Assembly: GCA_016180855.1 (NCBI GenBank)
Contig: JACPAL010000014.1
Coordinates: forward strand, 1 to 38,744
Origin: Deltaproteobacteria bacterium
GTDB taxonomy: Bacteria > UBA10199 > JACPAL01
Direction of reading: 5' to 3'
Length of the DNA: 38,744 nt
Part shown: piece by piece, positions 37 to 36,477 of the stretch
Position numbering within the stretch: position 1 is the stretch's first letter
Layout: each line of letters begins with the position of its first letter
Program-made: the position numbers and the translations under genes
The notes under the pieces: generated by a model
Seen by the model: only the letters and a program-made list of their open reading frames with translations
Databases searched by the model: none
What the model was told of the DNA's origin: nothing

Positions 37-2721
37 TTACTCGCTCAGCACTAGTCCTGAGTGAATAAATTCGTCACCGAATTTATGAATCGAAGGACTT
101 AGATTCAACAGGTAATCCCGAATCGCCTCGGACTGCTTCCGACTGCTTCCGCCGAGAATCTCTTGCGGGGCTGACTCATCGTTCGGCAGAAAGCCTGGCA
201 TCACAACCCCGGGCGTAAATTTCTGCGGGTCCTTGAGCCATTCCGGAATGAACTCGGGACGGATCCTCTCACGTACAAGCGCCAGATCCGGTCCCCACTG
301 GGCCGGTGCGCCAGGAGGGACAACTCCCCCACGGGCATGACAGGAGTAGCAACTAAAGTAGTCCCGTGAGATCAGTTTTTCCGCCGCCTGCCGCACATCG
401 GGTGACATAACAGGAGGCTTTGTCGGCGAATAAAAATCGGGTCTCACACCGTTCAAAGAGGAAAAGTAGCTGATGATCGCGTTTGCCTGTTCATCCGTAA
501 AACCAAAATTTGGCATCCTGACCTTGATCCAGGGACGAATCTTCGTCCGGGAGGGGTCCTTCAAGAAATCAAACATAAACTCAGGACGAACACGGGCGCC
601 AATGCCATCGAGGATCGGAGGAGGTGCCTCTCCTTCGGCCAGATAATCCTGGATCAGTCTCCCCTCCCCCTCAATCGTATGACATCCTTTACAGTTCAAT
701 CGCGCCACGAGACGACGCCCTTCATCGATCTTTGCCTGATTTATGCGAACCTTGGACATTGTAAACCGCTCCGGCACCTCCTCCTTCTTGAGGCCTGAGA
801 GGAAGAGAACGAGGGCATGCACCTCCTCGTCCGAGAGCCCAAAATTTGGCATCACGGAGCTTGTCTTTTCCGTCAGATACCTCTGGGGATCTTTCAACTT
901 ACCGGCGATCCAGTCATGCCAGGTGCGTGGGACATCCGAATCACCAAAGTCGAGTTCATAAACCGCCTTTCTGCCAATGGTGCTCAAATCCACGGACAGT
1001 TTGGACGCCTTTTCAAAGCCCTGAATGACATGACAACCATAACAGCCATAACGGGAGACAATGAGGAAACCTTCCTTCGCCTTTTCAGGATCATGAAGGG
1101 CAGTTCTGATCTGCTCGTCTCTTTCAAGTGGTTTGCCCTGACGGACAAGATAGGCGGTGATATGAGCCGCCTCCTGGGGGGTCAGATGGAGTCTCGGCAT
1201 TTTGGCCTCAGGATTGTAGAGCTTCGGATCCTGAACCCAGTTGTAGATCCAATCCGCAGAGCTCTTTTCGCCGATTCGATCAAGGTCCGAAGCGAGTCCG
1301 GTTCCCTTCTCGCCCATACGGTGACAACCAAGACAGCCGACCGTTTCAAAGAGCTGCTGACCCATAACGGGATCACCACCCGGGTAACGACCAAACGGAA
1401 ATGAATAGTCCTGCGAAACACTCAAGAGGTACGCCGCCACTTTTTCAGTCTGCCCCACCCCGGTCTGTTCCAGAGGGATGTTTGGCATCTTTGCATGAGG
1501 GAGATAATCTTTCGGATTCTTGATCCACCGGACAAGCCATTCCTCGTTCACCTTGGAACCGATCTTCTGCAGAGAGGGCCCAACCCTGGGAGCCGCTTCA
1601 AAACCCTGAACATTATGACAACCGGTACATCCCAAGTTCCAGAAAAGCTTTTTTCCCTTCAATGCCACATCGGCGAACGGGAGGTTCCACTGATCCTGAT
1701 GACACTTGAAGCAGGACGCCTGCATCGAGTCACCTCGAAGAAGCGGTCTCTCCCAATGCTTGTCAATGCCATGAACAAAGTCATGCTCTTCGAGCGGTTT
1801 CCCCTTGATCTGGGTGGCACGCCCCTGCCCCCCATGACAGGTGGTACAACCAAACTTCTCGACGGGGTGTGAGGCAAAGATTTCAGTACGATGCGGATGG
1901 GTTTTGAACGGATTTTTTTCATTCTCAAAACCGTCCCGATTGATTGCAACGTGGCAAGATTGGCAGCGATCAACCGTACCCCACTGAACCTCAGCCCCCT
2001 TGCCCAGGTCGTCAATAACAACCTGCTGGAGATCAAAACTGCGGGACCGGACCTCTTGGATCTTCTTCCTGATATTTTCAAGTGGTTCAAAATGCTTCTC
2101 TTCTGCCTTTTGCCATTTTTTTAGCTCCCCCTCATATTGGTCCAAAATCGCCTGGGCCTCCAGAAGCCGCTCGGAGGCATCCATCTCATTTTTCTTTAAT
2201 TCCTTGAGCCGCTCTTCCAGCTCATAGTACTTTTTCTTCTGTTCCTCGACCTCCTCTTGATGGCCCGTCTCGAGGGCATGCTTCCATTCATAAAAGGTCT
2301 CATCCTGGTCTGCCTTCGCAAAACCGTAGCGTTGCTTCGCATCTTCATGACGAATCTTGCGTTCCTTCCACTCTTTCTTTGCCTTGCGGTACGCTTCCCC
2401 TTCCAATGCAACCTCAGCCGCCTCCCTTCTCAAACGAATTCGGCGCAGCGAAATATTCTCTTCGGTCACCTGGTCATCCGGTAGGAGATCGTTCTGTTGA
2501 TCCGTCTGTTCAAGAGACTGCTGCGTTGTCTTCCGCTCTTCCTTCAAGCGACCCAGCTCCAGGAGATTGAACTCACCCTGATACCGTTTCCAGCTCCTCC
2601 GGATCACAAATTCATCAAGATAGGCCCAAAGGCTCACCAACAGGAAAAGGCTCCCCAGAACAAATAACCACTTGCTGTAGGAGACCTTTTCAATCGGATC
2701 TGTTTCTTGTGGAGTCGCCAT
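37..2721 (-). CDS. Octaheme cytochrome c with N-terminal anchor and coiled coil, bc-complex partner
   Basis: Probable electron-accepting subunit of the quinol:cytochrome c reductase encoded just upstream. The 894-residue product has a short cytoplasmic N-terminus, one membrane segment (about residues 18-36) and a highly charged coiled-coil region (about 50-235). Eight CXXCH heme sites follow, starting at residues 253, 292, 337, 365, 463, 560, 677 and 791. The last five each sit in a class I cytochrome c-like module with a later MP(N/R/G) motif that can supply the distal Met ligand (M412, M508, M624, M736, M841). The first three lack such a Met and are probably bis-His or differently ligated. 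The rest is predicted periplasmic. It starts 9 bp after the subunit IV gene and is the last gene of that set visible. A further ATG on this strand at the window edge (3-1) may begin another gene. Heme count is directly visible; the role is inferred from context. Confidence 0.9.
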   Translation of the reverse strand: MATPQETDPIEKVSYSKWLFVLGSLFLLVSLWAYLDEFVIRRSWKRYQGEFNLLELGRLKEERKTTQQSLEQTDQQNDLLPDDQVTEENISLRRIRLRREAAEVALEGEAYRKAKKEWKERKIRHEDAKQRYGFAKADQDETFYEWKHALETGHQEEVEEQKKKYYELEERLKELKKNEMDASERLLEAQAILDQYEGELKKWQKAEEKHFEPLENIRKKIQEVRSRSFDLQQVVIDDLGKGAEVQWGTVDRCQSCHVAINRDGFENEKNPFKTHPHRTEIFASHPVEKFGCTTCHGGQGRATQIKGKPLEEHDFVHGIDKHWERPLLRGDSMQASCFKCHQDQWNLPFADVALKGKKLFWNLGCTGCHNVQGFEAAPRVGPSLQKIGSKVNEEWLVRWIKNPKDYLPHAKMPNIPLEQTGVGQTEKVAAYLLSVSQDYSFPFGRYPGGDPVMGQQLFETVGCLGCHRMGEKGTGLASDLDRIGEKSSADWIYNWVQDPKLYNPEAKMPRLHLTPQEAAHITAYLVRQGKPLERDEQIRTALHDPEKAKEGFLIVSRYGCYGCHVIQGFEKASKLSVDLSTIGRKAVYELDFGDSDVPRTWHDWIAGKLKDPQRYLTEKTSSVMPNFGLSDEEVHALVLFLSGLKKEEVPERFTMSKVRINQAKIDEGRRLVARLNCKGCHTIEGEGRLIQDYLAEGEAPPPILDGIGARVRPEFMFDFLKDPSRTKIRPWIKVRMPNFGFTDEQANAIISYFSSLNGVRPDFYSPTKPPVMSPDVRQAAEKLISRDYFSCYSCHARGGVVPPGAPAQWGPDLALVRERIRPEFIPEWLKDPQKFTPGVVMPGFLPNDESAPQEILGGSSRKQSEAIRDYLLNLSPSIHKFGDEFIHSGLVLSE

Positions 2722-2730
2722 GACGTTTTC

Positions 2731-3534
2731 TCAGATATTGAGTCCAATCCAGGGCAGCGAGCAGATATACTTGATGTTCAATGTCCATCGCAGGAGCATT
2801 TTGATCGGCAAGGCCATCATGGTAAGAAAAAGAAAGGCCACAATACCATAGCGAACCGCTCCCAGCTTCTGAAGCGTCTCGCTCGTCTTACTCTTCCAGC
2901 GGTAATAGAGAACGCCTGTCGAATAGTAAGCCGCTATCAATCCTAATCCGAAGAGGGCGGCCATCACCTTTCCACGTAAGAAGTCGATCCCGAAGGTCTG
3001 GGCAATCCAGATATTAAGATCGACGTTGGTCAGTGCCACGACCTTGTGGGGATCCCACTCCTCCCAGGGTGCAAAGAAGTTCCAGCCCGGGCCCCTCAGA
3101 AAAACTCCAACAACAATAAGAAAAATCCAAAGGATGAGAAAACCAAAACAGAACGTTCCAACCGCAAACGGCCGCTCACGAAATGTGTAGTAGCCAGATC
3201 CTTTTGGGTTGGTATCAATATAGGGAATGACCATAAGGCCAACAATAATCAAACTCGGCAGTACAACACCGGCCATCCAGGGATCAAAATAGACAAGCAT
3301 CTCCTGCAGACCAAGAAAATACCACGGGGCCTTTGACGGATTGGGCGTCTTCGCCGGATTGGCCGGCTCCTCCAGGGGGGCGTCGATGACGATTGACCAG
3401 ACGGTGATCCCTATCAAGGCGATCAATCCGATAATGAACTCAACCTTTACCAGATGGGGCCATGTGTGGACCTTGTCCGGATTCAGGGAGGAGGCGGGAA
3501 CAATTTTATCACCTGCTTTGTGCGGTTCTGTCAT
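2731..3534 (-). CDS. petD: Cytochrome b C-terminal half (subunit IV-like) of bc/b6f-type complex
   Basis: Membrane subunit that with the cytochrome b6 half forms the quinol-oxidising (Qo) site. The 267-residue product has hydrophobic segments near 31-50, 88-105, 124-147, 187-210 and 228-245. The Qo-site motif, PEWY in classical complexes, reads A-P-W-Y at residues 69-72, followed by FLGLQE. Variation at this motif is known to track with quinone type and potential, so a low-potential quinone such as menaquinone is plausible but not shown. It is longer than plant or cyanobacterial subunit IV, with extra helices at the C-terminus. It lies 84 bp after the cytochrome b6 gene, with a palindromic repeat in the gap, and 9 bp before the octaheme cytochrome gene. 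Confidence 0.9.
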   Translation of the reverse strand: MTEPHKAGDKIVPASSLNPDKVHTWPHLVKVEFIIGLIALIGITVWSIVIDAPLEEPANPAKTPNPSKAPWYFLGLQEMLVYFDPWMAGVVLPSLIIVGLMVIPYIDTNPKGSGYYTFRERPFAVGTFCFGFLILWIFLIVVGVFLRGPGWNFFAPWEEWDPHKVVALTNVDLNIWIAQTFGIDFLRGKVMAALFGLGLIAAYYSTGVLYYRWKSKTSETLQKLGAVRYGIVAFLFLTMMALPIKMLLRWTLNIKYICSLPWIGLNI

Positions 3535-3618: not shown

Positions 3619-4422
3619 TCACAACGGCCCTGAGATGCCCCCGTCTTTCCGTACTCTCCAAAAGTGAACAATCATTAATACCGCTGCGGCAATCGGAATA
3701 AAAATACAATGGAGCACATAAAATCGAAGCAGCGTCGGTGCGCCAACAATCGTCCCTGCCGTTAGAAAAGAGCGGGCGTCATATCGGGGGGTGATCACGC
3801 CCGTTAGCTGTTGCATCTGTTCCGCAAGCGGTCCTTCGTGCCCGAGCAACGGGGTCGCCCGTGCCATGTTGGTCCCGACCGTCACAGCCCAGATGGAGAG
3901 CTGATCCCACGGGAGAAGATATCCGGTAAATGAGAGAAGAAATGTGAGGACAAGAAGCAGGACCCCAACGACCCAGTTAAACTCCCGTGGCGGTTTATAG
4001 GAGCCGGTCATAAAGACACGAAACATGTGAAGCATGACAAGAATGACCATCCCGTGCGCCCCCCAGCGATGCATGTTTCTCATCACCATCCCGAACGGGA
4101 CATCAAACTGGAGATATTTCATGTCGACGAAGGCATATTCAGCAACGGGGCGATAGTAAAACATCAGGATCACGCCCGTGACGGTCAGAATCAGGAAAAA
4201 GAGAAAGGTCAGACCACCCGCACACCAGGTATAGGAAATCTTGATCCCGTGGCGCCGCATCTTGGAGGGATGAAGGTGCAGGAAGACATTCGAGGCGGTC
4301 ATGAGGACACGATTACGCGCCGTGTCTTTGTAACCATGTCGAAAGATCGATTTCCAGACGTAGGAATCAACGATCAATTTTCTCAACTCTTCATATTGGG
4401 CTTTAAATTGGATTAAGTTCAT
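3619..4422 (-). CDS. petB: Cytochrome b6-type cytochrome b N-terminal half
   Basis: Diheme membrane subunit of the quinol:cytochrome c reductase. The 267-residue product has four main hydrophobic helices. Heme b ligands are visible as H118 and H132 (13 residues between) and H238 and H253 (14 between), the spacing of b6-type proteins. Cys67, in the stretch [10 protein letters not shown], aligns with the cysteine that covalently holds the extra heme c(n) in cytochrome b6 and in Bacillus-type complexes, so a third, covalent heme is likely. A GYLLPWDQ stretch (167-174) matches the conserved b6 region. The start chosen is the ATG at 4422, which overlaps the Rieske stop codon as ATGA; an upstream in-frame ATG at 4452 would lie inside the Rieske gene. 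Confidence 0.92.
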
Positions 4423-4955
4423 AAAACGACAAACGCCTCCGGATTCTCCCACTCCCCCTTCTCATACAAAAATTTTCTGCTCTTATCGACGATCAATTCC
4501 CCTTCCGCATCAAGCCGCACGGCATATCTTTCAAGAGGGCGCGGGGCCGGGCCCTCAAAATTAATCCCCTCCATCGTAAATCCGCTGCCATGGCAGGGAC
4601 ATTTGAATTTAGTTTCTAGGGGGAGCCAGCGCGGGGTGCATCCGAGATGCGTGCAGATCGCCTGAATCGCAATGATCTTTCCCTTCTCCCTCAGAATCCA
4701 GACCCGCTGTTCCTCTTTGAAACGCTCACTCACCTCCCCCTCAACATAATCCTCCGGCTTGCCGGCCTTGAAGATCGGTGACGGTTCAAAAAGAACGCGG
4801 GGGAACATAAAGCGGACAAACCCCAGAAGCCCCAAACCGATCGCCGAGAGAAAAGCACCCCACCCGGCAAAGCCGAAAAATTCCCGCCGGGTCCAGAGGT
4901 TCCTCTCGTCCCCCCTCTTCGTGATGCCTTCGCTTCCTGGAATCGTGCTTTGCAT
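4419..4955 (-). CDS. petC: Rieske iron-sulfur protein of bc complex, Tat-exported
   Basis: [2Fe-2S] subunit that carries electrons from the Qo site to cytochrome c. In the 178-residue form starting at 4955, a twin-arginine motif (TRREFF, residues 22-27) precedes one hydrophobic helix (about 30-50), which serves as signal and anchor. Cluster ligands are C101 and H103 (CTHLGC) and C119 and H122 (CPCHGSGF); C106 and C121 can form the usual disulfide. The start at 4955 is preferred because AGGAC lies just upstream and the N-terminus then fits Rieske proteins; the longer frame to 5087 adds an unlike leader. The stop overlaps the petB-like start by 4 bp. It lies 58 bp after purA on the same strand. 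Confidence 0.93.
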
Positions 4956-34479: not shown

Positions 34480-36477
34480 TTAAAGGCAAAGTCCATCTTC
34501 ACAGCCATCAGGACATAGAGTCGTTGCCGATTCCGCAGGTCGCCCATCGATACCACACTCGTACTGAATGAGCTCAAACGAACCATCAACCCTTGTCCTG
34601 CAGAGATCATGCTGGACGACACAATCGCCGCCCGTAACGAAACCAGATGTGGTTGCAGTTGCCGTCGTGCGGGAGCAGGAGCAAGTAGAAACACAGGCCC
34701 CCTCAACAACCCCGGGTGGATCAATACAAACCTCTCCTGGATCGCAAGTCTCAAGGACCCACAGTGAAATTTCGTCAGAGCTGTCATCACAGTGATTTTG
34801 CCAAACACCGGTTCGCTCAGGGTTACAAAAATCTCTCCAAGTATCAATTCGCCCATCGCTCCACGCTACAGTCGTTGTGCCAGGCAGATCAGAGTCATCA
34901 AGCGTGTCGGTATCGGTGCATTCGCTCGTTACAGGATCACCCGGAACACAGGCCCCCTCAACAACCCCGGGTGGATCGTAGCAGGTCTCACCAGCACCAC
35001 AAGGCGTCAAGACCCACGGTGAAATTTCGTCAGAGCTGTCATCACAGTGATTTTGATAAACAGCACTTTGGTCAACATTGCAGAAATCGGCGGTAACGTC
35101 CGTCCGCCCATCACTCCATGCCACCGTTGTTCTCCCAGGCAGATCAGCATCATCTGTCGTATCGGTATCGGTACAAATACTTTCCGGCAGAGGATCATCG
35201 ACACACGCCCCTTCCTCACAGGGGACCCCCTCTTCACATCCATTGATACCGACGGTAATCTCTCCGTCATTTCCACAGATAATGTACCGAACCGAATCCT
35301 CTGTTTCACAACGACTAATATGGGTTGAATCGGGATATTCTCGAAGCCTCGTCCCGGGTTCGAGGGACGCCGCCTCAGGATCTGCACAATCTTCAATGAT
35401 TGCATCCGGGATACGACAGGCGTTGGTACATAAATCGTCATCGATCAAGTTTCCATCGTCGCAGTCCTCACCCAATTCTACAATCTCATTCCCGCAAACG
35501 GGGGCCGGCAAACAATCTCCTCCACAGGTTGGCTCATCATAAAAGAGTAAACAGACAGCCGGTTCTGCAGAGACCGCCTCGCAGCTCCCCCCGACACTAC
35601 AGGCATAACAGGTAACGAGTTCAGGGTCCGGCTCGGTGATCGGTTCATCTGACTCACAAACGGCGCTACAGCCATCATCGGAGACCAAATTTCCATCATC
35701 ACACTCCTCCCCCCTCTCAAAGACTCCATTTCCACAGGTTGAAGGACAGTGGTAAGAGGTAACCGATCGAGAACTTAAAATGCATTCAATCACACAGCGA
35801 TTGCTACAACCATCACCAGAGACTTCATTCCCATCGTCACAGGTCTCATAAGCCTCTATCATTCGATTGCCACATTCCTGCATTTTACAATCAAAGGTAC
35901 AACCATCCCCTGATCGCTGATTTCCATCATCGCACTCCTCTCCATTCTCCAAAATGCCGTTGCCACAGTTGTGCTCAAAGCGGCATTGAGGAGTACAACC
36001 ATCCAGAAAGATATTATTGCCATCATCGCATTGTTCATCCCCCTCCACTGTACCGTTACCACAGTAACTAAAAAAACCGTCAAGACACGGGAAGCAGATC
36101 GTCGTCCAGTCGATATGGCAAAAGGAACCGATACAATTCATCTTCCACAGACTCTTGCTCGGCAGTCCGATCATCGTCATCTGATACTGACCTTTTGATA
36201 ACTTTTTATAGGAGAGGCCTAATTTCTTATTCCCTTTCTTCCAGACAAAAGAAGAGCGCTTGGTATCAAGGGAGGTACAAACCGGTTTAGAGTCCGAATC
36301 AATTTTTTCACAAAACTTCCCCGCGCCAAGATCCAATGTGAGTTCTAATGGCAACCCAACTTTTTTTTGAGTTGAAGAAACAATTTTTCCTGCCTCTTTT
36401 CTAATGGCCACTCCGGAGACGGGTAAGAACAGGATCATCATGAAACAGAGGACAAAGGCCCGATTTGTTGTTTTCAT
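34480..36477 (-). CDS. Secreted Cys-rich protein with five DUF4215 repeats
   Basis: A 665-residue exported protein. It has a signal peptide (about 1-24), then a domain (about 25-135) with paired cysteines. Five Cys-rich repeats of the DUF4215 type (CGNG..E..E.CDDGN...DGC...C) lie at about 139-165, 171-197, 202-228, 248-274 and 328-354. The C-terminal part repeats a Cys-rich module, including two nearly identical 85-residue copies (CTDTDT...EGACV). DUF4215 proteins are common surface proteins in Myxococcota and related groups; the repeats may bind metal or partners. AAGGAGGG precedes the ATG. Function unknown. Confidence 0.85.
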   Translation of the reverse strand: MKTTNRAFVLCFMMILFLPVSGVAIRKEAGKIVSSTQKKVGLPLELTLDLGAGKFCEKIDSDSKPVCTSLDTKRSSFVWKKGNKKLGLSYKKLSKGQYQMTMIGLPSKSLWKMNCIGSFCHIDWTTICFPCLDGFFSYCGNGTVEGDEQCDDGNNIFLDGCTPQCRFEHNCGNGILENGEECDDGNQRSGDGCTFDCKMQECGNRMIEAYETCDDGNEVSGDGCSNRCVIECILSSRSVTSYHCPSTCGNGVFERGEECDDGNLVSDDGCSAVCESDEPITEPDPELVTCYACSVGGSCEAVSAEPAVCLLFYDEPTCGGDCLPAPVCGNEIVELGEDCDDGNLIDDDLCTNACRIPDAIIEDCADPEAASLEPGTRLREYPDSTHISRCETEDSVRYIICGNDGEITVGINGCEEGVPCEEGACVDDPLPESICTDTDTTDDADLPGRTTVAWSDGRTDVTADFCNVDQSAVYQNHCDDSSDEISPWVLTPCGAGETCYDPPGVVEGACVPGDPVTSECTDTDTLDDSDLPGTTTVAWSDGRIDTWRDFCNPERTGVWQNHCDDSSDEISLWVLETCDPGEVCIDPPGVVEGACVSTCSCSRTTATATTSGFVTGGDCVVQHDLCRTRVDGSFELIQYECGIDGRPAESATTLCPDGCEDGLCL
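34691..35200. repeat. Two tandem 255-bp repeats inside the DUF4215 gene
   Basis: 34691-34945 and 34946-35200 are tandem, nearly identical copies (for example ACACAGGCCCCCTCAACAAC occurs at both starts). The 255-bp period equals 85 codons, so copy-number change keeps the frame. A more diverged third start lies at 35201. Confidence 0.85.

Follow-up and report, generated by a model that had tools for sequence, protein, structure and literature searches.

A probable b6f-like quinol-oxidising complex with an octaheme cytochrome c in the place of cytochrome f

What does a cytochrome with eight c-type hemes and a long helical region do beside the genes of a quinol-oxidising complex? The question was raised by the window, the whole stretch of 38,744 nucleotides analysed here (G000:C14:1-38744), whose contig ends 36 bp beyond the octaheme gene. 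The minus strand from 5087 to 37 carries four adjacent genes in the order Rieske protein, cytochrome b6, subunit IV and octaheme cytochrome. Together they probably encode a b6f-like quinol-oxidising complex of the Kustd1480-1485/Nitrospina type, with the octaheme protein replacing cytochrome f and delivering electrons to a soluble carrier and then to an oxidase. The complex was assigned to this already known type because of the operons described in PMC3578206 and PMC12954380 and the 58% Rieske match to Kustd1480.

The gene cluster and its heme sites

The Rieske iron-sulfur protein (4419-4955, minus strand; 178 aa if begun at 4955, as its homologues suggest) was identified by Pfam and by PDB match. 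Its best PDB match was 9rk3, which is Kustd1480 (150.7 bits, E 3e-43, 58% identity), followed by 9rk4, the other Kuenenia Rieske protein, Kuste4569 (80.9 bits, 40% identity). A CHGSGF stretch was common to the window protein and Kustd1480, and from these sequence matches the two are judged orthologous.

The cytochrome b6-like protein (3619-4422, minus strand; 267 aa from the start at 4422) was recognised by Pfam, NCBIfam and PDB b6 matches. In the numbering of the 277-aa open reading frame (3619-4452), the heme b ligands H128, H142, H248 and H263 and the heme cN cysteine C77 were conserved in the b6 alignment. Across the same alignment, H59 and H61 of an LHLHP motif (residues 58-62) were also conserved. 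The subunit IV-like protein (2731-3534, minus strand; 267 aa; Pfam and NCBIfam) had five membrane helices predicted from hydropathy, and SKAPWYF replaced the PEWY motif. The nearest named NCBIfam models for b6 and subunit IV, together with one cytochrome match, were ExtP, ExtQ and ExtS, all below NCBI cut-offs.

The octaheme cytochrome, the putative electron-accepting subunit, is encoded at 37-2721 (minus strand; 894 aa from an ATG) and follows the Rieske, b6 and subunit IV genes, which bears out its earlier description as the fourth gene of a bc/b6f-type complex. It had eight CXXCH motifs, at residues 253, 292, 337, 365, 463, 560, 677 and 791, against a mean of 0.0075 and a maximum of one in shuffles of the same composition. 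Pfam Cytochrom_C matched four separate stretches (E 2e-38), and the three N-terminal CXXCH sites matched cytochrome c7/c3 profiles. From its N-terminus the protein comprised one membrane helix, a long-helix stretch of some 180 residues, the three CXXCH sites just named and five modules of class-I cytochrome c. No Pfam match to cytochrome f was obtained in this adjacent c-type subunit, which is an octaheme protein of class-I/c7 type. Hemes 4 and 5 gave a weak profile match to actinobacterial QcrC.

Axial ligands were assigned from motifs and from an alignment of 41 full-length sequences, the homologues being 29-64% identical to the window protein. All eight CXXCH motifs, the Met-Pro pairs at M412, M508, M624, M736 and M841, and H275/H285 were invariant (41/41), and every aligned sequence had a His, in most cases within AHTP or FVHG, between hemes 2 and 3. 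Because these ligand columns were invariant, five hemes were assigned as His/Met, which is well supported by the sequences, and the three N-terminal hemes as likely bis-His. The likely bis-His sites are heme 1 (CQSCH, residues 253-257; 1951-1965, minus strand, as for all that follow), heme 2 (CTTCH, 292-296; 1834-1848) and heme 3 (CFKCH, 337-341; 1699-1713), the last assigned from its motif and the His between hemes 2 and 3. The His/Met candidates are heme 4 (CTGCH, 365-369; 1615-1629) with Met412, heme 5 (CLGCH, 463-467; 1321-1335) with Met508 in a domain that resembles SoxX, heme 6 (CYGCH, 560-564; 1030-1044) with Met624, heme 7 (CKGCH, 677-681; 679-693) with Met736, and heme 8 (CYSCH, 791-795; 337-351) with Met841. 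The sequence-only reading had proposed five Met-ligated modules after three other heme sites, and had set the protein apart from the mono- or diheme proteins that usually fill its place; the five invariant Met-Pro pairs agree with the first and the eight invariant CXXCH motifs with the second.

The end of the octaheme gene coincides with a copy of a dispersed repeat of about 102 bp (1-104, at the contig end), which supplies the stop codon and the last 20 or so codons. The partly palindromic repeat had 34 matches in the 2.2-Mb genome (the window and 33 further places) and folded moderately well as RNA (z -1.9). Its echo at the octaheme C-terminus was also found at the protein level. The final 20 or so residues thus come from a dispersed DNA repeat and not from the protein family.

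Elsewhere in the window, the product of a gene at 34480-36477 (minus strand) is 665 aa long and carries five disulfide repeats of the cysteine-rich myxococcal type (DUF4215). A cysteine-rich-repeat protein with a different repeat adjoins the complex in another locus (L073). Upstream of the complex lie genes which, from their translations, we take to be purA-like and serA-like.

Distribution and linkage to b6 and subunit IV

At E 1e-30, the octaheme protein was matched in 13 of the 46 genomes from the window's phylum-level group, 33 of the 145 from Omnitrophota and one from Acidobacteria (L009). A wider profile search was positive in 64 of 385 genomes, a count that includes fragments and coil-less relatives. 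Thirteen low-scoring contig matches (Brevibacillus and others) were short cytochrome c matches and were rejected as whole-protein homologues.

All 65 coil-bearing homologues with complete sequence had exactly eight hemes, and b6 or subunit IV directly adjoined the octaheme gene in 61 of them. Sixty of these were scored as such. The one added was L155, in which only 27 bp separate the end of subunit IV from the octaheme gene and the sequence upstream of that is masked. The order Rieske, b6, subunit IV, octaheme was that of the window and of nearly all homologues. The same coil-octaheme layout beside b6 and subunit IV genes, for which the earlier reading had proposed a search, is therefore recurrent. 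Homologues unlinked from any bc complex would have refuted that reading, and for the most part they were not seen. Only four were not adjacent: in one the locus stops at a contig end (L156), in two the bc genes lie about 6-9 kb off on the opposite strand (L157, L159), and in one b6 is on a different contig from the octaheme gene (L162, genome G309). All four genomes nevertheless had a b6 that was 73-76% identical to that of the window. Conversely, four of five genomes checked from the same class that had no octaheme gene gave no b6 match, and the fifth gave only a 43% match. The one hydrazine-synthase match among genomes with a homologue, in G309, was discarded as a sign of anammox, its contig being unlike an anammox gene cluster. 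A HEAT-repeat protein gene stood just upstream of the Rieske gene in 29 loci (L010 485-1369 and 28 others), Omnitrophota and Acidobacteria among them.

Twelve octaheme relatives had no long helices (650-770 aa). Nine of these stood beside b6 and subunit IV, and three had no bc genes nearby (L170, L172, L175). A NarH-like iron-sulfur gene lay upstream in three that had b6 and subunit IV and no recognised Rieske gene (L166-L168), with a molybdoenzyme gene upstream as well in L166 and L167. In three more (L165:10539-12455, L174:2242-4116, L177:2687-4657), an upstream oxidoreductase gene had iron-sulfur and nucleotide-binding motifs, and it was Pyr_redox_2/Fer4_20 in L174 and L177, the two that were scanned. 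This gene was reminiscent of the NAD(P) oxidoreductase described for Kuenenia complexes.

Helices, neighbouring genes and the proposed electron path

The AF2 model of the octaheme protein (mean pLDDT 79, pTM 0.63) placed a helix at residues 15-40 (2602-2679, minus strand), where hydropathy was also greatest (18-36), in agreement with the membrane anchor proposed earlier. The region that follows (residues 43-225; 2047-2595, minus strand) was modelled as helices 43-78, 92-152 (given more finely as 92-106 and 109-152) and 155-225, the last two forming an antiparallel hairpin. The tri-heme stretch (231-328) was of low confidence. Residues 107-196 could be superposed, at an rmsd of about 2 A, on antiparallel hairpins, the LSD1 tower among them. 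Antiparallel hairpins are common, and the match therefore means only that the chain folds back. At E below 0.1, Foldseek matched the model to nothing in the PDB, an absence that does not speak for a new fold. The region measured 153-208 aa in the 41 homologues, and its heptad periodicity was marginal (p 0.05 at 3.5), so that the label "coiled coil" refers to predicted helices. The prediction is of a folded helical hairpin and not of one straight stalk.

The earlier expectation of an anchored stalk that projects a long wire into the periplasm is not supported by this model. In its fuller form, a rigid coiled coil would hold the eight hemes in line deep into the periplasm, where outer-membrane partners might receive electrons for extracellular transfer. 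In favour of such a wire are the eight hemes in a row, the long and charged helical region that all coil-bearing members have, and the origin of the sub-cut-off ExtP, ExtQ and ExtS matches in a Geobacter selenite/tellurite operon. Against it, the modelled chain folds back, the heptad signal is weak, and the helices of Kustd1480-1485 wrap around the complex in an AF3 model (PMC12954380). Moreover, the conserved neighbours were cupredoxin and oxidase genes, and no outer-membrane porin-cytochrome gene was recognised among the recurrent neighbours, which were viewed without a profile scan. The wire is consequently considered improbable.

In about 30 loci, a cupredoxin-like gene with the orientation of the complex lay no more than 7.5 kb away, in most of them directly downstream. 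All 32 selected cupredoxin sequences had His-Cys-His-Met, of which the Cys-His-Met part is conserved by construction, since selection required a C..H..M motif; Glu replaced Met in the L071 copy. The cupredoxin profile matched amicyanin and a blue copper protein, and the fold of its model (pLDDT 90) matched amicyanin, plastocyanin and CuA. Ten loci had COX1 within 7.5 kb of the complex, some of them also COX3, CtaA and CtaB (all four near the complex in L071, CtaA and CtaB in L081).

In the window's own genome (G000), the oxidases and the cupredoxin were all on contigs other than that of the complex. One of two COX1 genes was accompanied by CtaA/CtaB-like genes on C16, and the other, on C12, adjoined an NrfD/molybdopterin cluster resembling alternative complex III. 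The C12 loci L196 and L197, with multiheme cytochromes, molybdopterin/NrfD genes, COX genes and a NarGH-like pair, make up a second respiratory cluster. The cupredoxin, on C17, was 70% identical to one downstream of the complex in G001. The genes around it on C17 were those that follow the complex in G001, in the same relative order, and this synteny suggests that C17 follows C14, the contig of the window.

From the conserved ligands, the model and the neighbours, we infer the following path. Quinol, probably menaquinol, would be oxidised at a site on the positive side; one electron would pass to the b hemes and heme cN in a Q cycle, and the other through the Rieske cluster to the octaheme protein. 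The membrane helix and the folded hairpin would hold the heme domain on the complex, around the Rieske head and not lifted away from it. The three bis-His and five His/Met hemes would then both relay and store electrons on their way to a soluble carrier, perhaps the product of the cupredoxin gene just downstream in many relatives and a cytochrome c in others. The carrier would deliver them to a heme-copper oxidase.

A narrower version of this path is put forward tentatively, with distinctly lower confidence than the complex itself. Omnitrophota, Acidobacteriota and the window's phylum-level group might share a widespread non-photosynthetic chain of b6f, octaheme protein, cupredoxin and oxidase, in which the hairpin would be a clamp controlling movement of the Rieske head, distinct from the NAD(P)H-making role proposed for Kuenenia.

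The complex could also work as proposed for Kuenenia, menaquinol bifurcation driving NAD(P)+ reduction while the octaheme protein feeds a high-potential acceptor. Orthology of the Rieske protein to Kustd1480 is consistent with such working, as are the coil-less L165, L174 and L177 with their upstream iron-sulfur/nucleotide-binding gene. The conserved LHLHP histidines of b6 may in addition be those that AF3 places on the proposed extra interface heme b in Kuenenia. A crude motif scan, however, gave no NAD(P) oxidoreductase gene within 8 kb of any coil-bearing homologue, and none lay directly upstream of the complex in the window, downstream being the 36 bp to the contig end. The recurrent neighbours were oxidase and cupredoxin genes instead, and NAD(P)+ reduction at this locus is held to be unlikely. 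Function can differ between members, since it is the Kuenenia counterpart for which making of NAD(P)H has been proposed.

It is least probable that the octaheme subunit is itself an enzyme converting, for example, nitrite, hydroxylamine or tetrathionate, as the octaheme cytochromes HAO, ONR and OTR are enzymes: the ligand columns gave a candidate distal ligand at every heme in 41 of 41 sequences and no sign of a substrate-open catalytic heme, the five ordinary class-I modules are unlike the HAO and OTR families, and this explanation was rejected on heme ligation.

Comparison with known systems

The multiheme fold with an open active-site heme of HAO, ONR and OTR was not seen in the window protein, which has five class-I Met-ligated domains. 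Geobacter ExtP, ExtQ and ExtS supplied the nearest named models for b6 and subunit IV, each of the three below its cut-off. The c subunit of the actinobacterial bc1-aa3 supercomplex, the diheme QcrC, consists like the window protein of tandem class-I cytochrome c domains; it differs in having two hemes instead of eight, no long helical region and a bc1-type context.

With chloroplast and cyanobacterial b6f the window shares split b6 and subunit IV, the heme cN cysteine, a Rieske protein and, as the likely destination of the electrons, a small blue-copper protein. Unlike them, it has an octaheme protein for cytochrome f, KAPWY for PEWY and two extra helices in subunit IV.

In Nitrospina, a bc operon with split cytochrome b encodes an "atypical octaheme cytochrome c", and Kuenenia and Methylomirabilis have this operon too (PMC3578206). 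As in the window, the N. gracilis operon has an Fe-S subunit beside split b6 and subunit IV, and the octaheme protein is the only adjacent cytochrome c (PMC3578206). It is considered there in relation to a nitrite oxidiser and to reverse electron transport, in a passage that makes no mention of a coiled coil (PMC3578206).

In the AF3 model of Kustd1480-1485 from the anammox bacterium Kuenenia stuttgartiensis, the long helices of the octaheme subunit, Kustd1485, wrap around the complex and the Rieske protein, subunit IV has five helices, and the nearest c hemes are 26-28 A from the membrane cofactors (PMC12954380). The role proposed is making NAD(P)H rather than proton pumping only, Kustd1480 has a potential of +335 mV, and its authors find the need for so many hemes not entirely clear (PMC12954380). 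Shared with the window are the orthologous Rieske protein, split b6 and five-helix subunit IV, and an octaheme protein with a membrane helix and long alpha-helices; the window protein and Kustd1485 are likened here by layout and description. The Kuenenia complex has a putative NAD(P) oxidoreductase, whereas none was seen at the window.

A complex discussed for nitrite oxidisers, NC10 methane oxidisers and anammox now extends to many little-known lineages, and it is tied there to a recurrent copper protein and to oxygen reductases. Versions apparently free of an NAD(P) reductase are simpler systems for direct tests of the octaheme subunit and its helices. The most useful additions of this analysis are the breadth of linkage, the conserved ligands, the cupredoxin and oxidase neighbours and, by a crude motif scan, the apparent absence of the NAD(P) oxidoreductase. 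The arrangement of an octaheme protein for cytochrome f has already been described, and the window is a well-supported further example of it.
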